Part shown: one piece after another, positions 2,886-43,684 of the stretch
Layout of the letters: each line of letters starts with the position of its first letter
How positions within the stretch are numbered: position 1 is the stretch's first letter
IMG/VR virus record: IMGVR_UViG_3300046457_000119
Span: 1 to 43,684 of that record
DNA length: 43,684 nucleotides
Source of the DNA: a virus
Reading direction: 5' to 3' (one strand)
Notes under the pieces: model-generated
What the model was told of the DNA's origin: nothing
Database searches by the model: none
Seen by the model: only the letters and a program-made list of their open reading frames with translations
Made by a program: the position numbers and the translations under genes

Positions 2886-3761
2886 GTGGATAGACCTGAA
2901 ATCTATGAAAGGCTGAACGGCGCCGCAGCTGAAGGGGGAGATATTTTCGCCGTGCTCCGGGAGTTCCCCGTTGATGTTGTTGGTGATGTGATGCTCGATA
3001 TACCAGAAGAGTATGTACATGCCCGCAAAGCAATACCGAGAATGGCTGACGATGCAACCCAGGATCTCTGGACTGGCAGCCACGGTCACGGCCTACTATT
3101 TCAAAGTTGTGCATTCACAAAAGCTATCGAACTCGGCTTTTTGAAGCACACCGGCCAGGACTTACGTGGAAAAAAGATATTGGATTACGGTTGCGGATGG
3201 GGGCGCCTCATCAGGTTGATGTATGCATTTTCTCCACCCGAAAAAATATTTGGATGCGACCCTTGGGACCGATCGATCAAGCTGTGCAAAGAAACTGGAA
3301 TTAGCGCGAACCTTGAAATCTGCGACTATTTTCCTACGTCTGTTCCTTTTTCAGAAAAATCTTTCGATCTAGTTTACGCGTTCAGTGTATTTACTCACCT
3401 ATCGGAAGAGACCGCCGCAACCGTTCTTTCAGCGATCCATAAATCAATATCCGCTGACGGTATTCTGGCTATTACGATCAGACCGGCAAGCTATTGGTAC
3501 GTGCACCAATACGGCGATATGCCGATCGACATCGACAAGATGCGGGCGCTACACAAAAGCGACCAGTATGCTTTTGTCCCTCACAATTCATCAAAAGTAG
3601 AACGTCCTAATGACTCGACGGGTGTTAAACCATACGGGGATGCATCCTTCTCACTCGGGTATATAAACCGCGAATGGCGAGATTGGACCGTGGTCGGAAC
3701 TGATGTTTCCCTTCTCGACCCATACCAAACCATTGTTTTTTTGAAGGCGCTGAAAGCTTAG
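2886..3761 (+). CDS. Class I SAM-dependent methyltransferase (probable moron)
   Basis: Encodes 291 aa from GTG 2886 with AAGGAG seven bases upstream. Residues 97-106 (KILDYGCGWG) are motif I, the SAM-binding loop of Rossmann methyltransferases; FGCDPWDRS (122-130) fits the acidic motif II and SFDLVYAFSVFTHL (159-172) fits motif IV and beyond. The substrate cannot be read from sequence; DNA is unlikely because no NPPY or PC motif is present, while protein, sugar or small-molecule targets are open. It is transcribed against the late operon between tail-fibre chaperone and endolysin and is visibly more A/T-rich than its neighbours, all typical of an acquired gene expressed in the lysogen. Confidence 0.82.
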   Translation: MDRPEIYERLNGAAAEGGDIFAVLREFPVDVVGDVMLDIPEEYVHARKAIPRMADDATQDLWTGSHGHGLLFQSCAFTKAIELGFLKHTGQDLRGKKILDYGCGWGRLIRLMYAFSPPEKIFGCDPWDRSIKLCKETGISANLEICDYFPTSVPFSEKSFDLVYAFSVFTHLSEETAATVLSAIHKSISADGILAITIRPASYWYVHQYGDMPIDIDKMRALHKSDQYAFVPHNSSKVERPNDSTGVKPYGDASFSLGYINREWRDWTVVGTDVSLLDPYQTIVFLKALKA

Positions 3762-3812
3762 CGCAAGTTAATAATGGCTCAGCTTAAGCGATACTTGCGC
3801 TGAGCCCGCAAA

Positions 3813-4208
3813 TCAAGACGGTTGTGCTGGCCAGGTCTGATTATTAACAGTCAAATCAACCGCTTGAACAGCTCTATAGTAATCCTGCCACAGCTCTGCC
3901 AAAGTAGTTTCATCATTAGTCGCATTACCAAGTTGAAGGAATAACAGAAGCGGGGTCATTACTTGTGACGCATATGCGAGCAATGAAGTTTGGGTGGCAG
4001 TGTTCACTGTTAGTATTTCTTCTTCCGTCGGCGGCGTTTCGAGCGGACAGGTAAATATGCCATCCGAATATTTCCATCCATGTGATGCAACATCAGACTC
4101 AACTGCGATATATCCTTCGCCCGGACTCCACTCAGTTATACCATCCCAAACGGCGACCCCCTCAACTATCCCCGTTGCCGAATCTACTATCGCATAGTTA
4201 CCCATCAT
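3813..4208 (-). CDS. Tail fibre assembly chaperone
   Basis: Encodes 131 aa beginning MMGNYAIV. The start ATG overlaps the tail-fibre stop in the order GC-ATG-ATG, so the two are translationally coupled; the second ATG at 4205 is an equally possible start. The N-terminal half (YAIVDSATGIVEGVAVWDG, then a WxPGEGY segment) and the C-terminal helical part ending WPAQPS are typical of small phage tail-fibre assembly proteins found directly after fibre genes. It would help fold or trimerise the fibre encoded upstream. Family assignment is by pattern and position. Confidence 0.75.
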   Translation of the reverse strand: MMGNYAIVDSATGIVEGVAVWDGITEWSPGEGYIAVESDVASHGWKYSDGIFTCPLETPPTEEEILTVNTATQTSLLAYASQVMTPLLLFLQLGNATNDETTLAELWQDYYRAVQAVDLTVNNQTWPAQPS

Positions 4209-5110
4209 GCATACTCCCAAACAATAACAACGCCGGGCGCACCATTGCCACCAGCAACTGCGGCAGATGACGGGATGAGAGAGCCGCCGCCACCACCAGC
4301 GCCATAGCCAGTGCCAATATTGCCTATCGCACCTTGCGATGGGCTGCCGCCACCACCGTAAATCGTCGATCCTCCAAATCCTGAGCACGGGGTTCCGGAG
4401 AGCAGTCCATAGCCGCCACTCATCCCGGTATAATTCGCAAGATTGCCGAGTGTCGGGAGACTGCTTCGCCCTGGGGGCACGTTAGAGCCTGTTGTGGTCG
4501 TGCTCACTGCTGACGATCCAGCACCGCCAGGCCCACCGCCGGAAATCAAAAGAGCGCCAAATGAGCTAGCCGATCCAGCAATACCGCCATTATTACCCGC
4601 AGCGCCGCCTGCGCCTGCTGATCCAACCGTAATAGTCACTGGAAAGGTTATCGCAGAAGTAAGCAGTTTTGATTTGCAAAATGCACCAGCACTTCCGCCG
4701 CTCCCGGCAGCCGCTTGAGCCGCCGCCGTAGTCGCTGCCCCGCCACCGCCACCGCCACCACCTTGTACCTCAACCAAAATGTTTGTTGTCCCAGCGGTAG
4801 GCGTGTAGGTGCCGCTTGAGGTGAACACCTGAATGTTGATGAATCGGCCTTTCACAGCACTTTTTAGGCTAGCTAATATAGTGGTGATAGTGCCGTCATC
4901 CAGAACATCTAAACCAGTGTTATCGACAATCATCTGTGCCAATGCGGCCGACATTATCGATGCTTGACGCCATACTTTATTCAGCTGTGCAGAGTTTGCC
5001 GTTCCAGAGGAAAACCCAGTAGTTCGCGCTAAAAGTGCTGAGTAAGCTGCCTGAGTCATTACGTTGGCGCCCACGGCACCGCCGAACAGAAGAAAATCAT
5101 TCGTTGCCAT
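4205..5110 (-). CDS. Tail fibre with glycine-rich receptor-binding region
   Basis: Encodes 301 aa. The N-terminal third (MATNDFLLFGGAVGANVMTQ... to about residue 95) is a baseplate-attachment type region seen in many Pseudomonas phage fibres. After a short beta-rich part (FTSSGTYTPTAGTTNILVEVQ) comes a Gly/Ala/Ser-rich section from about residue 113 to the end, with runs such as GGGGGGGG and AGGGGGS, closing with GAPGVVIVWEYA. Such regions can fold as packed polyglycine-II helices in phage adhesins (known for S16 gp38); that fold here is inference. It is the likely host-range determinant, followed by its chaperone. Confidence 0.8.
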   Translation of the reverse strand: MATNDFLLFGGAVGANVMTQAAYSALLARTTGFSSGTANSAQLNKVWRQASIMSAALAQMIVDNTGLDVLDDGTITTILASLKSAVKGRFINIQVFTSSGTYTPTAGTTNILVEVQGGGGGGGGAATTAAAQAAAGSGGSAGAFCKSKLLTSAITFPVTITVGSAGAGGAAGNNGGIAGSASSFGALLISGGGPGGAGSSAVSTTTTGSNVPPGRSSLPTLGNLANYTGMSGGYGLLSGTPCSGFGGSTIYGGGGSPSQGAIGNIGTGYGAGGGGGSLIPSSAAVAGGNGAPGVVIVWEYA

Positions 5111-5121
5111 ATATACCCCGA

Positions 5122-5784
5122 CTATTGGTAAATCGCGCCCCAGCTTCCTTGGTCGAAACCGGCGACATATTGGTTAGTGACGTCAAACCCGAACAGTGGG
5201 CCGTCGCCGGTCGGGACGATGTAGTAATCGACGCCAACGCTTTGCGGCTTTATTGGGATGTATCCGCCGGTAAGTAGAGCCAGCTCAAGTGCAGAAGGCG
5301 ACACACCGGCAACGCCGATGGTCATGGTCATGTCTTGGTTATCTTGTATGAAAACCAGAGAATCACCTGAAAAGACCAAGTCCAGAATTGCTTTGGACTG
5401 TTCCATGGTTCCGTCCCAGTGATTTGCGCCGATCTTCGCGCGTATCAGGGTTCGATACGTCTCATCATCTAGGATGGTGATGCCGCTGTTCGGATCGAAC
5501 GGCCCCTGCCATGCCCCTTGATCAAAGCCCAGTCCTTCGGTATCCAACGAGAAATAAACGCCGGCAAGCGGAGTGCTCACCCTTCTGGATATACCGACCC
5601 ACAGACCGACGTCATCCAGTTGAGAGCCCACGGCACTATCAAGATCAAAATCTTCAGGTAGTCCAGCGGCTACGACGTTCGTATCAAGAAAACATTGCGA
5701 CACCGACTCGACCATCTGCATGAACTTCGGTTTGTCGGAATGTTCACTGGTGATTTTTCCGGTGTAGTCCTTGATGTCAGCCAT
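5122..5784 (-). CDS. Baseplate-associated protein, DUF2612-like
   Basis: Encodes 220 aa. No signal or membrane segments. It sits between the gp47/J-like protein and the fibre, where contractile-tail phages encode the baseplate wedge or fibre-connector (gpI-like) protein. Recognisable patterns are the helical N-terminus followed by an ETYRTLIRAKI segment and the repeated motif GFDQGAWQG/GFDQGSWG near both ends of the fibre-facing part. The family resembles DUF2612 phage proteins; exact role is inferred from order. Confidence 0.72.
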   Translation of the reverse strand: MADIKDYTGKITSEHSDKPKFMQMVESVSQCFLDTNVVAAGLPEDFDLDSAVGSQLDDVGLWVGISRRVSTPLAGVYFSLDTEGLGFDQGAWQGPFDPNSGITILDDETYRTLIRAKIGANHWDGTMEQSKAILDLVFSGDSLVFIQDNQDMTMTIGVAGVSPSALELALLTGGYIPIKPQSVGVDYYIVPTGDGPLFGFDVTNQYVAGFDQGSWGAIYQ

Positions 5785-8039: not shown

Positions 8040-8051
8040 GGAGTTACCGTC

Positions 8052-8483
8052 TTGAAAAGAGCACTAGCAGTGATTTTAATTTCTTTGTCATCGACCGCAT
8101 TTGCAGAGACGGTCTTGGTTGATCCGGGCCCAAATCACATGTTTGTTGGCGATCAATTCGATGCACGGATTGCAACCGAAGTCCTTTATGAGGACAGACC
8201 ATGCAAGCTTCCGATCACTGAGGCGAAAGACATGCGTGAATACACAACAACCGGCATAGCGATTCCTATGAAGGGTTGCTGGGGTAGAACGTTGGGTGGT
8301 GGAGTTCTGCGCGTACTTGAAAACGGCACAACTATGCGAGCCACTGAAACCGCTTATGTCGTTGCCAAAGTTGATAAAACGGGAGCGGCCGTGATCATGA
8401 AGTCAATATATGATCGGAAGAATTACGAGCCATGCAAGCGTGCGTACCAGAAAGGCCAGTGGTGCTTAAAGGGCCAGGATTAA
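8052..8483 (+). CDS. Exported Cys-containing protein, plus-strand insertion in the baseplate operon
   Basis: Encodes 143 aa from TTG 8052, chosen because GGAG (8040-8043) lies eight bases upstream and because the signal peptide begins exactly there (KRALAVILISLSSTAFA, cleavage near residue 18). The mature protein has four cysteines (in PCKLP, GCWGR, PCKRA, WCLKG) that could form two disulfides. No family recognised. It is divergent from the spike gene and convergent with the hub gene, whose stop codon it overlaps by two to three bases (shared TTAA), so it has been fitted without spare DNA. Likely expressed in the lysogen; function unknown. Confidence 0.72.
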   Translation: MKRALAVILISLSSTAFAETVLVDPGPNHMFVGDQFDARIATEVLYEDRPCKLPITEAKDMREYTTTGIAIPMKGCWGRTLGGGVLRVLENGTTMRATETAYVVAKVDKTGAAVIMKSIYDRKNYEPCKRAYQKGQWCLKGQD

Positions 8484-9460
8484 CCGAATGGTCGAACCGG
8501 TCCAGGTGAGGCTATGGCACCCGGGATGCCTGTACCCGACCGAATCATCGATTGGTTCGTCATAGTCGCATCAATCGAAATACAGATTGAATCTGTGTAC
8601 CACGTGTTTCCTCTAGTATCACCAAAGTGATTCGCGATAAGCACTTTGTAAAAGCCATCAGAGTTCAGCTTCACCTGAACAAGAGCCAGCGATGTTGCTG
8701 CCTCGGTAAGTGGTGCTGGATTTAGCCTGAGCCGCTGGATGCTCGCGTTATCTATTTTTAGGCGCTTTCCAACTCGAATTCCTGGATTGAGTAACGTCCG
8801 AACGCTTATCCCGTTCTGTGTTTGCTCTGGTAGACCGACCATCCCGGTTGCAGAGGTGACGACTACGGATTCGCCAGGTAAATAAGCATTGTTGGGAATT
8901 AATGTCAGCTTGCCGTCTTGAATACTCCAACTAACATCTTGTGTCCTGCCAAAAATATCGAGAAAGTCGCGCGTCATTCCATAAAACACTTTCCCGCGAG
9001 GTAGTCGTCCTGTTGAAAGCTCAGGGGCCTCCCCCATCGAGATACCTCTCGAAGCCATTGACCTCAAAATCTGTTCAAGATGATCTTTTGGTGTGGAGCC
9101 AGCAGCCAGCGTCACATTCATCACAGCCCAGTTGTAAGCACTATCACCATCGGCAGCCGTGATGTCGAGGTAGGTGTCGGTCTGACTTTCTCGGCCTCGA
9201 CGTACCTGCTTGATCGTACCGTCAAAGATCACGCCATAGTTTCCGGCGTACCCCGCCTGCAAAACAACGCGAGTGAACTCCTGCTCAATTTTCTGAATCG
9301 TGTTTTCACTGAGGTTGTAGACACGAATATCCGCAGTGTTAGGAGTACTGATGTCACCCCGGACAACGGCGAACCGGATTCGCATCTCCGAAAGCTCAAT
9401 GGCGAACTCGGGGTTGCCTACCTTGAGGCTGATTTTTCGCATGTACTGAGGAACGCTCAT
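8480..9460 (-). CDS. Baseplate hub / late control-type tail protein
   Basis: Encodes 326 aa from ATG 9460 (AAAGGTG upstream; a GTG two codons earlier is an alternative). The N-terminus KISLKVGNPEFAIELSEMRIRFAVVRGD and the ADIRVYNLSENTIQKI segment are typical of phage baseplate hub proteins that form the first ring below the tube. FDGTIKQVRRGRESQTDTYLDITAADGDSAYN matches the same family. It precedes the Gp138-like spike, consistent with a hub-spike pair. A terminator separates it from the upstream antirepressor gene. Confidence 0.78.
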   Translation of the reverse strand: MSVPQYMRKISLKVGNPEFAIELSEMRIRFAVVRGDISTPNTADIRVYNLSENTIQKIEQEFTRVVLQAGYAGNYGVIFDGTIKQVRRGRESQTDTYLDITAADGDSAYNWAVMNVTLAAGSTPKDHLEQILRSMASRGISMGEAPELSTGRLPRGKVFYGMTRDFLDIFGRTQDVSWSIQDGKLTLIPNNAYLPGESVVVTSATGMVGLPEQTQNGISVRTLLNPGIRVGKRLKIDNASIQRLRLNPAPLTEAATSLALVQVKLNSDGFYKVLIANHFGDTRGNTWYTDSICISIDATMTNQSMIRSGTGIPGAIASPGPVRPFG

Positions 9461-9485
9461 GGGCACACCTTTGTTGTGTTCGCAG

Positions 9486-9508
9486 AAAAGCCCGCACTTG
9501 GCGGGCTA
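9486..9508 (-). terminator. Intrinsic terminator after the antirepressor gene
   Basis: On the minus strand AGCCCGC-CAAGT-GCGGGCT is followed by TTTTCTG. It lies 15 bases beyond the antirepressor stop and before the hub start, so it would end the arc-ant transcript while late transcription must read through it. Confidence 0.75.
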
Positions 9509-9522
9509 CGGTATTGATTGTC

Positions 9523-10368
9523 TCAGGCAACGATGCGTCGGCGCAGGTGCTGCATCGTCTTTATAGCGAAATCAAACAGTTCTGCCTGGGTTGCGCACAA
9601 GCCGTTTGGTGCGTTGAGCTGATCGAGAAACTCCGGTGCCGACATGACGCAAGCATCGATGGGGATTTCCTTGATTCGTGGCTTTCCATCAGACCCACGA
9701 CTGACCAGCCAGCGCTGGACGAGAGAGTGACCTTGTGGGATATCCACGGTGCTAATCGACTTTTCGTCCCGCCCGATGAGCTCACCCTCAAGGACGTAGG
9801 CCGCAATGAAGTTGCGAACACTATCGAGCTGGTCCGCCGGGATATCTTCGGCGGATCGCACGCCAAACGCCGCGTGGGTTTGCGCCCAGATCTTCGAAGT
9901 GGCGCGACGACGAACCGCCATAGGAAGCCCGGAAACCTTGCCCTTAACTATCGAGCCAAGCATGTGAAAGCCGTCAGTGCCGATGGTCTGGCCGATCAGT
10001 GTGCCCATGCGCCCAAGGCTGTCGCTGTAGCGACCGTGTTTGCGTATGGCCGGCAGAACTTCATCGCACACCCAAGCTTCGAAGCGCTGGGCCTCCTCCT
10101 TCCTGCTTTTGATGATCAGACGGTAGAGGTTGCCTTCATCTATAAAGGTTAGGCTGCGCTGCTGCCCGACAGACCTGATGTCGCGTTTCGCGATACCAGC
10201 TTCTCGGCAATGCTTGGTGATAGCGTCCGGAGCATTGCGATACCCTAGAATTGAGCAGACATCAGTAGCGCAAAACCAAGGCGCTCCATCTATCTCCTGA
10301 ACGCGAACACCTTTCGCCTCGAAGGCGAACGGGATGACATTCGATGATGCTGTGTTATCTTTACTCAT
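9523..10368 (-). CDS. Phage antirepressor, BRO-N domain
   Basis: Encodes 281 aa. The first 110 residues are a BRO-N domain: GVRVQEIDGAPWFCATDVCSILGY, then DAITKHCREAG, LTFIDEGNLYRLIIKSRKEEAQRFEAWVCDEVLPAIRKHG. The C-terminal half is a different, basic domain (SGLPMAVRRRATSKIWAQTH). Proteins of this build (P22 Ant and relatives) bind and inactivate phage repressors and so promote induction or superinfection growth. It is the distal gene of a two-gene operon behind a small Arc-like repressor, in the same order as P22 arc-ant. A GAGG precedes the ATG. Confidence 0.85.
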   Translation of the reverse strand: MSKDNTASSNVIPFAFEAKGVRVQEIDGAPWFCATDVCSILGYRNAPDAITKHCREAGIAKRDIRSVGQQRSLTFIDEGNLYRLIIKSRKEEAQRFEAWVCDEVLPAIRKHGRYSDSLGRMGTLIGQTIGTDGFHMLGSIVKGKVSGLPMAVRRRATSKIWAQTHAAFGVRSAEDIPADQLDSVRNFIAAYVLEGELIGRDEKSISTVDIPQGHSLVQRWLVSRGSDGKPRIKEIPIDACVMSAPEFLDQLNAPNGLCATQAELFDFAIKTMQHLRRRIVA

Positions 10369-10397
10369 GTGGATGTCCTCAAGAAATGTTCACACCC

Positions 10398-10431
10398 GAA
10401 GCCCTGGCGAATCTCACCTCGCCGGGGCTTC
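10398..10431. promoter_or_regulatory. Strong hairpin in the arc-ant intercistronic region
   Basis: GAAGCCCTGGCGA (10398-10410) pairs with TCGCCGGGGCTTC (10419-10431) apart from one wobble. It sits in the 69-nt gap between the Arc-like and antirepressor genes. On the minus strand no U-tract follows; on the plus strand TTCATTTC follows, so it could end an antisense RNA. See the finding on a sar-like RNA. Confidence 0.55.
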
Positions 10432-10437
10432 TTCATT

Positions 10438-10605
10438 TCAGGCACTTGCCTGCACTCGCTGTTGTTCACGCTCCATCTCCTCTTTCAAAATCTTGCAAAT
10501 CACCCAGTTCTGGCTGCGCTCCTCGCTTTCGGCCTTTTTTGCAACGAACTCCCGCATTTCCGGCGCCATACGCAACCCAAATGGGTTGATGTCTCTAGTC
10601 TTCAT
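10438..10605 (-). CDS. Arc-like ribbon-helix-helix repressor
   Basis: Encodes 55 aa (P22 Arc has 53). ATG 10605 is preceded by AAGGAGT. The sequence NPFGLRMAPEMREFVAKKAESEERSQNWVICKILKEEMERE has the ribbon-helix-helix pattern: a short basic-hydrophobic strand, then two helices with the RSxNxxI turn characteristic of the Arc/Mnt group. It would repress its own promoter and the antirepressor gene downstream. The strong promoter and palindromic operator lie immediately upstream (10618-10661). Confidence 0.85.
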   Translation of the reverse strand: MKTRDINPFGLRMAPEMREFVAKKAESEERSQNWVICKILKEEMEREQQRVQASA

Positions 10606-10617
10606 GATGTTACTCCT

Positions 10618-10670
10618 TAGTGACTCCGTGTCACTATACGAGCGACACGATGTAGTGTCAACATAGTGAC
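10618..10670. promoter_or_regulatory. Operator region between the Arc-like and Mnt-like genes
   Basis: Contains TAGTGACTCCGTGTCACTA (10618-10636), a perfect 7-bp inverted repeat around 5 bp; a second imperfect repeat GACAC-6-GTGTC (10644-10659); and another TAGTGAC half-site (10664-10670) touching the Mnt-like start codon. The first palindrome covers the -10 and start point of the arc-ant promoter, the last half-site covers the translation start of the divergent gene. This is where the two ribbon-helix-helix proteins should bind. Confidence 0.7.
10633..10661 (-). promoter_or_regulatory. Strong sigma-70 promoter for the arc-ant operon
   Basis: Minus strand -35 TTGACA (10661-10656), 17-bp spacer, -10 TATAGT (10638-10633). 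Spacing and both hexamers are near consensus. It drives the Arc-like and antirepressor genes and is overlapped by the 10618-10636 palindrome, so tight repression is expected. Confidence 0.85.
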
Positions 10671-10931
10671 ATGAATGACGAAATATACCGCTCACAGTTC
10701 CGCCTACCGCACTCACTTTATGAGCTGCTGAAATCTTCTGCGGATGAAAATCGACGATCCGTCAACGCGGAGTTGGTAGCCCGCCTGGAGGAAAGCTTTC
10801 AAGCGCGAGCAAGCAATCCCGCAACCGTGGGAGAGCTGATGGATAATCTGATGCAGTTGTGCGAGGCGTCGGGAAGATCTATCCAGATCACCTTTGGGGA
10901 TTCCGAAGAAGACGATAGCGACGAGCCCTAA
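10671..10931 (+). CDS. Mnt-like ribbon-helix-helix repressor, divergent from arc
   Basis: Encodes 86 aa (P22 Mnt is about 82). Residues 6-46 (YRSQFRLPHSLYELLKSSADENRRSVNAELVARLEESF) are a clear Arc/Mnt fold with the RSxNxE motif; the remainder is an acidic C-terminal tail that in Mnt mediates tetramer formation. There is no ribosome-binding site directly before ATG 10671, so initiation may be weak or leaderless. It is divergent from the Arc-like gene, as mnt is in P22, and would keep the antirepressor silent in the lysogen. Its stop abuts the convergent baseplate gene with no gap. Confidence 0.82.
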   Translation: MNDEIYRSQFRLPHSLYELLKSSADENRRSVNAELVARLEESFQARASNPATVGELMDNLMQLCEASGRSIQITFGDSEEDDSDEP

Positions 10932-11243
10932 TCACTCCGTGTACCAATAAAGATGCGAGCCGACGCCGAGATTATCGAAGGTCGGCACCGCATCAGGATC
11001 TGCTGTGGTCTGCACCCAAAGCACGCCGGTGAAACCGAGGTAGGCATACTGCTCCAGCAGGTTTGCACCGGTCACCAGCGGAATTCCCTGAATTATCGGG
11101 TTCCCGCTGGTATCAGCTATGTCGAGTATCCAGCCCGCACCTTCAGCATTCCGCCATTGCACGGTGAGCCGGTAGTCGGTTCCGGATAGTGAAATGGTGA
11201 AGGTCTGCGGTTCTGGACTCAGCGGAATTTCAAAGTTGGCCAT
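10932..11243 (-). CDS. Baseplate plug-type protein, DUF6983-like
   Basis: Encodes 103 aa, beta-rich, without signal or membrane segments. The plan EIPLSPEPQTFTISLSGTDYRLTVQWRN ... GWILDIADTSGNPIIQGIPLVTGANLL is that of a small phage family found next to Dit-like and hub genes and called baseplate plug. Here it lies between the Dit-like gene and (past the regulatory insertion) the hub gene, which fits. Exact structural role is inferred. Confidence 0.72.
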   Translation of the reverse strand: MANFEIPLSPEPQTFTISLSGTDYRLTVQWRNAEGAGWILDIADTSGNPIIQGIPLVTGANLLEQYAYLGFTGVLWVQTTADPDAVPTFDNLGVGSHLYWYTE

Positions 11244-29161: not shown

Positions 29162-29470
29162 TCAGTCCTCCTCAAGCTGGTCGACGTGCTGAACGTGCTC
29201 CATCCAGCGCTTGGCCTGGTGGAAGATCGCTTCGATATCTCGCTGGTTAAAACAACGCATGTCGTTCGGAACGATCTTCAGCCCCAGCACAGACAGGATC
29301 TGGCAGAACTGCTCGAACTTCTCCGGCTTCATGCGGCTGATGGTTGCCTCGTCGCAACCCACTGCAAGTGCGACAGGGGCGTTGCCGATCGATGCAAGGC
29401 TCTGCATGAGAACGGAGTAGTTCTTGCGGGCCCTTACGGTCTGCTCTTGATTCAATGGGCTCGTCGACAT
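29162..29470 (-). CDS. CII-like transcription activator
   Basis: Encodes 102 aa. The pattern LNQEQTVRARKNYSVLMQSLASIGNAPVALAVGCDEATISRMKPEKFEQFCQILSVLGLKIVPND has the lambda CII plan: a helix-turn-helix with the helix GCDEATISRMK recognising DNA and a C-terminal helix for tetramers. Its start overlaps the end of the Cro-like gene and it precedes O and P. It would favour establishment of lysogeny by activating repressor synthesis. Confidence 0.82.
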   Translation of the reverse strand: MSTSPLNQEQTVRARKNYSVLMQSLASIGNAPVALAVGCDEATISRMKPEKFEQFCQILSVLGLKIVPNDMRCFNQRDIEAIFHQAKRWMEHVQHVDQLEED

Positions 29471-29827: not shown

Positions 29828-30460
29828 ATGGATATAGGTCAGATCATCAGAAAAGAGCGCAAGGCCAAAGGCTGGACGCTCGACGAACTCGCACACCAGG
29901 TCGAAACGGACGCTGGCAACCTTTCACGACTCGAGCGCGGCAAGCAATTCGCCAGTAAAGAGCTGCTGGGGCGAATCATGAAGGTTCTAGGAATTGAACT
30001 GTCCCAGGCAAAAGACCCAGGGATGTCGAATGTGCAGATGGCCCTGCAACCAAGCCGGGTGCCTAAGGAATATCCGTTGATCAGTTGGGTAATTGCTGGA
30101 GAGTGGGCAGAGTCTTCGGACAACTTCCACCCAGGCGATGCAGACACATGGATTGCCTCGACCGAGAACGCCGGCGAAAACGGCTTTTGGCTGGACGTAC
30201 GCGGCGACTCAATGACCTGCAACGGAAACCCCAGCTTTCCCGAGGGTTCGCGTATTCTGGTGCAGCCAGAGGCTGATGTGATCAGCGGCAAGTATTACGT
30301 GGTGAAGCTTGAAAGCGGCGAAAGCACCTTCAAGCAGTACATCGAAGACGCTGGCATGAAGTACTTGCGCCCACTGAATCCGAATTACCGCACCATTCAG
30401 ATCGAAGGCGACTGCAAGTTCATTGGTCGCGTGATCGATACCAAGATGACCGGCCTTTAA
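29828..30460 (+). CDS. cI: CI-type prophage repressor with LexA-like peptidase domain
   Basis: Encodes 210 aa. Residues 2-57 are a helix-turn-helix (WTLDELAHQVETDAGNLSRLERG). Residues 84-205 are a LexA/S24 peptidase domain: cleavage site Ala90-Gly91 in VIAGEW, catalytic Ser128 in RGDSMT and Lys169 in TFKQY, all in the spacing of lambda CI. RecA-stimulated self-cleavage would induce the prophage. It also is the likely target of the antirepressor. It is transcribed toward a membrane protein and a terminator as the lysogenic operon. Confidence 0.94.
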   Translation: MDIGQIIRKERKAKGWTLDELAHQVETDAGNLSRLERGKQFASKELLGRIMKVLGIELSQAKDPGMSNVQMALQPSRVPKEYPLISWVIAGEWAESSDNFHPGDADTWIASTENAGENGFWLDVRGDSMTCNGNPSFPEGSRILVQPEADVISGKYYVVKLESGESTFKQYIEDAGMKYLRPLNPNYRTIQIEGDCKFIGRVIDTKMTGL

Positions 30461-41734: not shown

Positions 41735-41985
41735 ACATCGAACACCAGGACCTGCCAGAAGAGCCAGTCGAGTTCATCCGCCTGCCAGAGGTCAAGAAGT
41801 TGGTAGGTCTGGGCACCACCAAGATCTACACCATGGCCGCCGAAGGCCTGTTCCCGAAACAGGTGCCACTGGGCGGCCGCTCCGTTGGCTGGATCAAGTC
41901 CGAGGTTCTGCAATGGAACCACGCCCAGATTGCCGCCGCACGGGGAGAACAGGGTCAGACTTCAGCCTCAAGCGCGTCCAAGTAA
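41731..41985 (+). CDS. AlpA-like regulator, probable excisionase
   Basis: Encodes 84 aa. VEFIRLPEVKKLVGLGTTKIYTMAAEGLFPKQVPLGGRSVGWIKSEVLQWNHAQIAAA is the winged helix of the AlpA/MerR-type excisionase group: the helix-turn-helix VKKLVGLGTTKIYTM and the wing PLGGRSVGW. Its ATG overlaps the preceding stop. It is the last gene of the PL operon and ends 31 bases inside the 3' end of the convergent integrase gene, so early transcription would produce antisense RNA to int. Confidence 0.87.
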   Translation: MNIEHQDLPEEPVEFIRLPEVKKLVGLGTTKIYTMAAEGLFPKQVPLGGRSVGWIKSEVLQWNHAQIAAARGEQGQTSASSASK

Positions 41986-43187
41986 TCGGCCCAAGCCTGC
42001 ATCATTCCCCGCCGTTGCTCGACGTACTCCGCGTGGTTGTAGGTCTTTCTGACCTTGCTTGAACTCGCATGCGAAAGCTGCGCCTCGATCCAATCCTCGT
42101 TGTAACCCATCTCGTTCAAGGCCGTTGAAATCGTGGCACGAATACCGTGCCCGGTCAGCTGGTCGTCATATCCCATGCGCCGCAATGCATTGTTGACCGT
42201 GTTGTCGCTGATAGGCTTGGTCGGCTCGTTCCGCCCGGCGATCAGCAGCTTGTAGCGGCCGGTCAACTTATGCACTTTGCGCACCTCTTCAACCGCCTGC
42301 CGCGACAGTGGCACCAGATACGGCGGAACTTCATCCCCTCCCTTGCTACGAATCACCTTCCGCAATTGCTTCACTGTGTCCGGCGGGATCGTCCACAGCG
42401 CGTTATCCAGGTCGAACTGGCTGATGGGTGCATGCCGCAGCTCGCCCGTGCGCACACCAGTCAGAAACAGAATCCTGATCGCACTTTTCACATACCCTGC
42501 CGTGCCATCGAAAACCTGCAGGTCGTGCAGGAACTTCTTTAACTGGTGCTGACGGAGCATTGGGTTGTGCTTCACGGGCGGCTCTTTGGCGGCGACGATA
42601 TCGAGGTCTGACGCCGGGTTCATTTCCAGATACCCCGAGGCGATGCCGAACCTGAATATCTCGTTCAGCCAGGCGCGACACTTGCGCGCCGAGTTTAGCG
42701 ATCCTCGATCCTCAATCCGGCGAAGCGCAGTCAGCACGTCACCACGCCTGACGTCGGCTATAGGGATCTTGCCCAGCACCGTGATCAGATCCTTGTCCAG
42801 GTAGAAGCGCGACTGATAAGCGGCGCCCTTCTTCGAATCGGCCACGCGCGGAGCCTTGAACTTATGCCATTCGTTGGCGACTACCTCAAACGTCTTGATG
42901 GCGTTGCCGGCGGCAACACGCTTTTCCTCGCGGCGTTTTGATCGGGGATCGATGCCCTTGGCTACAAGCGCACGGTGCTGATCCCGCAGCTCGCGGGCCT
43001 CTTTCAAAGTGATTTCGGGATAAGTGCCCAGCGACATGCGCGGCTGCTTGCCGTGCCAGGAGAACCTGAAGTGCCAGGACTTGGTGCCATTGCTGGCAAC
43101 AAAGAGGGATAGGCCGCTGCCATCCGTGAGGGTGAAGTCTTTGTCGGCCGGCTTGGCCTGTCGAACAGCGGTATCAGTGAGGGGCAT
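41955..43187 (-). CDS. int: Tyrosine recombinase integrase, P4-like
   Basis: Encodes 410 aa. Residues 1-90 are the DUF4102 arm-binding domain (LTDTAVRQAKPADKDFTLTDGSGLSLFVASNGTKSW...), residues about 100-200 the core-binding domain, and 205-390 the catalytic domain with R246 (TGVRTGELR), H347 and R350 (GHGIRA), H373 (LSHASS) and nucleophile Y383 (KTYNH). The start ATG is 164 bases from attR at tRNA-Thr, the normal layout for a tRNA integrase. An inverted repeat (TTAGTACAT and ATGTACTAA) brackets its upstream region. Confidence 0.95.
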   Translation of the reverse strand: MPLTDTAVRQAKPADKDFTLTDGSGLSLFVASNGTKSWHFRFSWHGKQPRMSLGTYPEITLKEARELRDQHRALVAKGIDPRSKRREEKRVAAGNAIKTFEVVANEWHKFKAPRVADSKKGAAYQSRFYLDKDLITVLGKIPIADVRRGDVLTALRRIEDRGSLNSARKCRAWLNEIFRFGIASGYLEMNPASDLDIVAAKEPPVKHNPMLRQHQLKKFLHDLQVFDGTAGYVKSAIRILFLTGVRTGELRHAPISQFDLDNALWTIPPDTVKQLRKVIRSKGGDEVPPYLVPLSRQAVEEVRKVHKLTGRYKLLIAGRNEPTKPISDNTVNNALRRMGYDDQLTGHGIRATISTALNEMGYNEDWIEAQLSHASSSKVRKTYNHAEYVEQRRGMMQAWADYLDALEAEV

Positions 43188-43350: not shown

Positions 43351-43368
43351 TGGTGCCCGAGACAGGAA
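43351..43368. repeat. attR core inside tRNA-Thr
   Basis: TGGTGCCCGAGACAGGAA, identical to 1567-1584. It covers the CCA end, acceptor 3' strand and part of the T stem of tRNA-Thr, which stays complete at this end. Beyond the core the two copies diverge (ACCG versus ATCG). Confidence 0.92.
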
Positions 43369-43426
43369 TCGAACCTGCGACCTTCGCGTTACGAGTGCGC
43401 TGCTCTACCGGCTGAGCTACACGGGC
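43351..43426 (-). tRNA. tRNA-Thr (anticodon CGT)
   Basis: 76 nt with encoded CCA. On the minus strand the 5' acceptor is GCCCGTG and the 3' strand CTCGGGC; D arm GCTCAGCCGGTAGAGC; anticodon stem-loop GCGCA-CTCGTAA-CGCGA with anticodon CGT; T arm GCAGG-TTCGATT-CCTGT. One U-U mismatch is present in the acceptor stem (position 6-67). It reads ACG codons for threonine. It is the integration target of the prophage and is kept whole. Confidence 0.95.
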
Positions 43427-43461: not shown

Positions 43462-43511
43462 AAAGATCGCAGCCGACCTCTTGCAGGAGCTGCCGCAGGC
43501 TGCGATCTTTT
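43462..43511. repeat. REP-like inverted repeat
   Basis: AAAGATCGCAGC (43462-43473) and GCTGCGATCTTT (43499-43510) form a perfect inverted repeat around GCAGGAGCTGCCGCAGG. This is the pattern of the dispersed GCAGGAGCTGCC...GGCTGCGATC repeats of the P. fluorescens group and supports the host assignment. Confidence 0.7.
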
Positions 43512-43530
43512 GATCTTTATGCCAGACAAA

Positions 43531-43566
43531 AAAATGCCCCGCCGTTTTCACGGCGGGGCATTTTTA
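43531..43566. terminator. Terminator of pnp
   Basis: TGCCCCGCCG-TTTTCA-CGGCGGGGCA flanked by an A-run and a T-run, so it can act in both directions. It follows the pnp stop on the minus strand. Confidence 0.88.
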
Positions 43567-43588
43567 TTGCGCTAAAGCTGAGGGGTGA

Positions 43589-43684
43589 TTAAACGCCCGA
43601 TGCCTTGGCTGCTGCCACGTCTTTGATGGACAGCTTGATACGGCCGCGGTTGTCCACGTCCAGTACCAGCACTTCCACTTCCTG
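43589..43684 (-). CDS. pnp: Polyribonucleotide nucleotidyltransferase, C-terminal end
   Basis: The last 31 codons: [31 protein letters not shown]. This is the end of the C-terminal S1 RNA-binding domain of PNPase, matching the usual Pseudomonas terminus ([18 protein letters not shown]). The rest lies outside the window. PNPase degrades RNA 3' to 5' by phosphorolysis. Some other S1-domain protein is a small possibility because only this tail is seen. Confidence 0.82.

Follow-up and report, generated by a model that had tools for sequence, protein, structure and literature searches.

The window analysed here, the whole 43,684-nucleotide stretch of IMG/VR virus record IMGVR_UViG_3300046457_000119, represents a Pseudomonas-type contractile-tail prophage in which two baseplate genes, encoding the plug and the hub, flank an mnt–arc–sar–ant module. 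The upstream late gene (10932–11243, minus strand) encodes a Pam3_gp18-like plug (Pfam PF22479, E = 9.5e-28) and is found beside the Dit and hub genes in relatives; the downstream late gene (8480–9460, minus strand) encodes an E217_GP41-like hub (Pfam PF22759, E = 1.3e-7; PHROG 196, E = 1e-70). Upstream in the tail operon are Dit-like and tape measure genes; other parts of it carry baseplate J and DUF3383 genes. These flanks agree with the baseplate-operon setting that a preliminary description of this DNA had given the module.

Gene families and open reading frame layout place an Arc-family gene and then an antirepressor gene in one operon on the minus strand. The first encodes a 55-aa Arc-like ribbon-helix-helix protein (10438–10605; Pfam Arc, E = 2.4e-7) and the second, ant, a 281-aa antirepressor (9523–10368; Bro-N, E = 2.1e-23; PHROG 245 ‘anti-repressor Ant’, E = 1.6e-47). 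Divergent from arc-ant, an 86-aa Mnt-like ribbon-helix-helix repressor gene lies on the plus strand (10671–10931; Pfam Arc PF03869, E = 3.1e-11), and the positions, strands and sizes of all three genes are those given in the preliminary description. The three frames are open, and the ribosome-binding sites of arc and ant are intact. As also described, the module ends at an intrinsic terminator on one side (about 9484–9508, minus strand; GCCCGCcaagtGCGGGCTTTT, GCCCGC...GCGGGC-TTTT), located after ant and upstream of the hub gene, and meets a late gene on the other, where the Mnt-like stop codon directly abuts the plug stop codon.

Between the divergent genes lies Pant, a sigma-70 promoter for arc-ant (10661–10633, minus strand; TTGACA-17-TATAGT) that matches at 11 of 12 positions and is as close to perfect as had been claimed; no clear Pmnt emerged from a promoter scan of the window. 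A candidate operator region at 10618–10670 contains four TAGTGWC half-sites, arranged as a palindrome and a half-site pair. The palindrome, TAGTGACTCCGTGTCACTA at 10618–10636, covers the −10 element and the start point, and the pair at 10653–10670 covers the −35 element. A palindrome does overlap the promoter, as earlier described, but on its own it is borderline against shuffled sequence (p = 0.08). Four of the ten TAGTGWC copies in the window fall in the 65-bp arc–mnt gap, a density that 0 of 2,000 shuffles reach, for a motif that was picked after the fact. The Mnt-like and Arc-like proteins may bind these candidate operators over Pant; their beta-strands are unlike those of the P22 proteins at the positions that make the DNA contacts in P22.

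The preliminary description overlooked a fourth part of the P22 immI region, the antisense RNA sar, which has its own promoter. This RNA, known from P22, is a textbook case of an antisense RNA. In the window, it was first predicted from a plus-strand terminator hairpin at 10398–10431 (hairpin II), identified by its terminator score and covarying in relatives, together with Psar, an extended −10 promoter within the first ant codons (10334–10361, plus strand; ATGACA-16-TATCTT) that was found by promoter scan and is enriched at this place in relatives. The predicted transcript (about 10369–10440, plus strand) spans the stretch from the ant ribosome-binding site to where arc ends. Rfam model RF00262 matches full length in the homologous place (10369–10435; 29.2 bits, E = 0.0023), with a score below its gathering cut-off of 43 bits.

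We trained a covariance model of our own, R1, on 21 Pseudomonas-type phage modules, leaving out both the window and P22. For the wider comparison, 133 arc–ant junctions from related loci were reduced to 37 non-redundant ones; only junctions with a usable start codon for ant no more than 150 nt from arc qualified, and 30 modules lacking one were set aside. R1 matches the window at 10366–10442 with 62 bits (E = 2.3e-14), against 26 bits for the next best match in the window, and recovers the annotated sar of P22 at its annotated place with 51.5 bits (E = 7e-11), all R1 E-values being rough. Among 27 tail-operon control loci, the only strong match is in L135, a locus with its own Arc/Mnt pair. 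Weak matches on both strands at 43496–43602 (26 and 22 bits) are probably an ordinary bidirectional terminator, and a Trp-leader match at 9482–9580 (E = 0.23) was rejected as merely the terminator region of ant.

In nearly all 37 modules the antisense strand folds into two hairpins: the first lies over the ant ribosome-binding site, and the second, a terminator, lies where arc ends; in L180 the first hairpin is not clear and the ant start is probably misassigned. Pairing holds in 91.9% of cells in the training alignment, compared with 79.3% in shuffles, and double changes occupy 59 cells, compared with 19; pairing falls to 37–51% when the structure partners are slid. Most of this signal comes from hairpin II, the weaker hairpin I being 77–86% paired; hairpin I was paired by hand, and RNAalifold alone finds hairpin II only. 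Wobble pairs number 30 on the sar strand and 4 on the ant mRNA strand, which shows that it is the antisense strand whose fold has been preserved. At the Psar distance, 30 of the 37 modules have an extended −10 promoter, compared with only 107 of 1,850 control gene starts. The locus thus has a two-hairpin fold with conserved pairing in the position and on the strand of sar (RF00262).

We considered whether the hairpin at 10398–10431, which does score as an intrinsic terminator, might be a plain plus-strand terminator with no antisense regulator attached. This is very unlikely: mnt, which starts at 10671, is transcribed in the direction leading away from the hairpin, the element has a first hairpin that covers the ant ribosome-binding site and a promoter immediately upstream, and R1 matches along all of its 80 positions. 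Moreover, the Pseudomonas matches to the model have an arc-like gene before them and an antirepressor operon after them in nearly all cases checked.

With sar included, the locus resembles P22 immI in all four parts and in their order and strands, in the position of Pant between divergent genes and in the ant terminator. In P22, a minus-strand mnt is followed by Pant and the operators, arc, an antisense sar at 2522–2591 and the ant ATG at 2592, with Psar 6–34 nt inside ant. sar in the window likewise occupies the interval between the end of arc and the ant ATG, reaching the nucleotide next to that ATG, with Psar 7–34 nt inside ant, an agreement in the position, promoter and terminator of sar that holds almost to the base. 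In both phages arc-ant is co-directional with the late operon and mnt is opposed to it, and the ant terminator is followed by a late gene, the tailspike gene 9 in P22 and the hub gene here (terminator at 9484–9508). The two differ in the N-domain of the antirepressor (Bro-N rather than P22_AR_N), in the C-terminal tail of Mnt, in operator sequence, and in host and slot, P22 being a podovirus with the region at its tailspike, whereas the window comes from a contractile-tail phage with the module in its baseplate genes. The window holds a well-preserved P22 immI-type module with sar, a known kind of system and not a new one; the likeness to immI is stronger than the preliminary description had it, as sar, Psar and the sar terminator are also there.

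The proteins have diverged more than the layout. P22 Ant is made of P22_AR_N and P22_AR_C, whereas the window Ant has a Bro-N N-domain and a C-terminal part common to P22_AR_N-type antirepressors, and shares with P22 Ant just a 60-aa part at 37% identity. Besides PHROG 245, it matches anti-repressor PHROGs 130 and 2899. On these domain assignments the window Ant is not a P22_AR-type antirepressor, and the comparison with P22 immI concerns the type of module. A closer relative is the ant-arc-mnt cluster of Pseudomonas phage UFJF_PfDIW6, which also has sar but differs in lying between the integrase and tail spike genes. The last 180 aa of the window Ant are 68% identical to the UFJF_PfDIW6 antirepressor, whose N-domain is P22_AR_N; judged from this alignment, the two differ by a clean N-domain swap beneath the same control. 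The Mnt-like protein is 26% identical to P22 Mnt over 72 aa (BLASTP, E = 1e-6) and 38% identical to its UFJF_PfDIW6 counterpart. The C-terminal domain PF11423, which is matched by P22 Mnt, gives no match in the Mnt-like protein at E values up to 1, an absence that concerns the Mnt subtype and not the module. BLASTP gives no alignment of the Arc-like protein with P22 Arc, and tblastn against phage records gives weak matches only.

A ribbon-helix-helix pair beside a Bro-N protein could also be read as a toxin–antitoxin-like or defence module. Ribbon-helix-helix proteins are common antitoxins, and weak matches to FitA-like and TraY models point the same way. What fits immI instead is the second, divergent ribbon-helix-helix gene, together with sar and the strong matches to antirepressor PHROGs, and profile searches of the module proteins matched no toxin family; we regard this as the least probable of the alternatives weighed here.

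Comparison with tail-operon relatives shows how the module is placed. In several of them (L108, L111, L112, L113, L116, L118 and others) the plug stop is adjacent to the hub start with no module between, and because plug and hub adjoin in these close relatives, the module can be delimited as an insert of about 1,471 bp (9461–10931). The hub start, most likely the ATG at 9460, was set by comparison with these empty sites; the module thus begins before position 9,486, where the preliminary description had it start, and its end at 10931 is unchanged. Other relatives carry different cargo at the junction on the opposite strand, encoding 78 aa (L114 and L110), 166 aa (L117), 181 aa (L120) or 104 aa (L138). 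Since relatives are either empty or loaded with other cargo there, the plug/hub junction is a moron slot, and the immI-type module is a late-operon moron in this prophage. In a distant phage, L135 (IMGVR_UViG_2808606854_000002, 3637–5640), the same slot holds a Mnt/Arc-like pair with sar (46 bits), and the genes behind that sar (85 aa; PHROG 4652; PHROG 5926) have no antirepressor match; sar may possibly control an output other than an antirepressor in this phage. Elsewhere in the window, the hub is separated from the tail gene that comes next by a convergent plus-strand gene (8044–8483), whose product probably has a signal peptide (MTVLKRALAVILISLSSTAFAE...). This gene is conserved in L114/L126 and L117 and marks the operon's second moron slot.

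P22 immI is itself a late-operon region, flanked by gene 16 and tailspike gene 9; it is termed the ‘ant moron’, an insert of very variable content (PMC2629481). The location of our module in a tail operon is accordingly a shared trait and not new in kind. The ‘ant moron’ of P22-like phages such as epsilon34 is likewise a variable late-operon insert, often with an immunity I region (PMC2629481); those phages are podoviruses and carry it ahead of the tailspike, whereas the insert here is at the baseplate plug/hub junction. We also considered whether the module is a decayed or silent relic, hitchhiking in the slot with its genes open and its regulation lost. Morons in the plug/hub slot turn over quickly, and P22-like phages include degraded ant morons (PMC2629481). 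All three frames are open, however, and Pant (11 of 12 matches), Psar, both hairpins of sar, the terminator of ant and the ribosome-binding sites of arc and ant are intact. We hold a relic to be highly improbable, if the least improbable of the three alternatives.

We consider it very probable that this is a P22 immI-type module of mnt, arc, sar and ant, carried as a moron between plug and hub and working as a P22-like switch. In P22, Mnt is the repressor of arc-ant and Arc tunes expression of the pair; sar prevents translation of ant, whose product inactivates CI-type repressors (PMC11016777; PMC3121763). By analogy, the Mnt-like protein would probably keep Pant shut in the prophage state. 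On entry into a Mnt-free cell, or on loss of Mnt, Pant would make the arc-ant mRNA, after which Arc would shut Pant down. Transcribed from Psar inside ant, sar would pair with the ant ribosome-binding site and limit Ant. The expected action of Ant is to bind and inactivate CI-type repressors, whether of its own phage or of other prophages in the cell. Late in infection, when late tail-operon transcription would cross arc-ant in the sense direction, Ant would also be held low by sar and Arc. Expression of the hub would presumably need read-through of the terminator after ant. The same terminator read-through problem exists in P22, which uses an antiterminator.

The record also contains a CI-like S24 repressor (29828–30460, plus strand), a CII-like gene (29162–29470, minus strand) and a helix-turn-helix gene in the Cro position. 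Because the phage has its own CI-like repressor and CII-like gene, immI would be a second control region, as the preliminary description proposed in placing it besides CI/Cro; its presence in a tail operon is no oddity, P22 immI being likewise in a late operon. Ant might act on this phage's own CI. An integrase gene (41955–43187) lies near a tRNA gene (43354–43426, minus strand) at the end of the record, the latter being a likely attachment site.

Beyond this phage, strong R1 matches occur in 18 of 299 Pseudomonas-group genomes, and an Arc-like gene precedes sar in all 12 loci checked by profile search. Across Pseudomonas phages, the antirepressors preceded by arc-sar control are of four or more N-domain types: Bro-N, P22_AR_N-like, ORF6N and pRha antirepressors are found behind sar and, in two cases, a DUF3077 gene followed by a pRha-KilAC antirepressor. 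One further locus (L317) has a truncated frame behind sar, and another (L309) is the L135 locus. DUF3077 genes as a non-antirepressor output of sar were dropped as a candidate, the next overlapping cistron being the pRha-KilAC antirepressor. In L323 and L326 (L330, L331) the DUF3077 gene behind sar overlaps this antirepressor gene by 4 bases, which suggests that DUF3077 has a role in these sar–antirepressor operons. In one Pseudomonas genome, a Zeta-toxin-like gene adjoins the antirepressor operon (L330, 4348–5094). Rfam RF00262 reaches its cut-off in 1 of 20 Pseudomonas-type sar loci (44.8 bits) and falls below it in the other 19. Most sar RNAs of Pseudomonas thus escape the model, which our training alignment plus P22-type members could be used to rebuild. 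Our incomplete coverage of the literature yielded no paper describing sar in Pseudomonas phages.

Tentatively, and with less than even confidence, we propose that mnt-arc-sar is a portable control cassette, far wider than the P22 group, that would drive exchangeable outputs (Bro-N, P22_AR_N, ORF6N, pRha, a DUF3077 first cistron and, in L135, genes with no antirepressor match). The L135 case, if true, would be one of sar controlling something other than an antirepressor. The module in the window is otherwise expected temperate-phage biology, and its interest lies mainly in the breadth of sar and in the swapped antirepressor domains, which suggest that antirepressor specificity evolves by N-domain swaps beneath a fixed control cassette. 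Because sar is conserved with compensatory changes across many phages of Pseudomonas, its role can be tested outside Salmonella.
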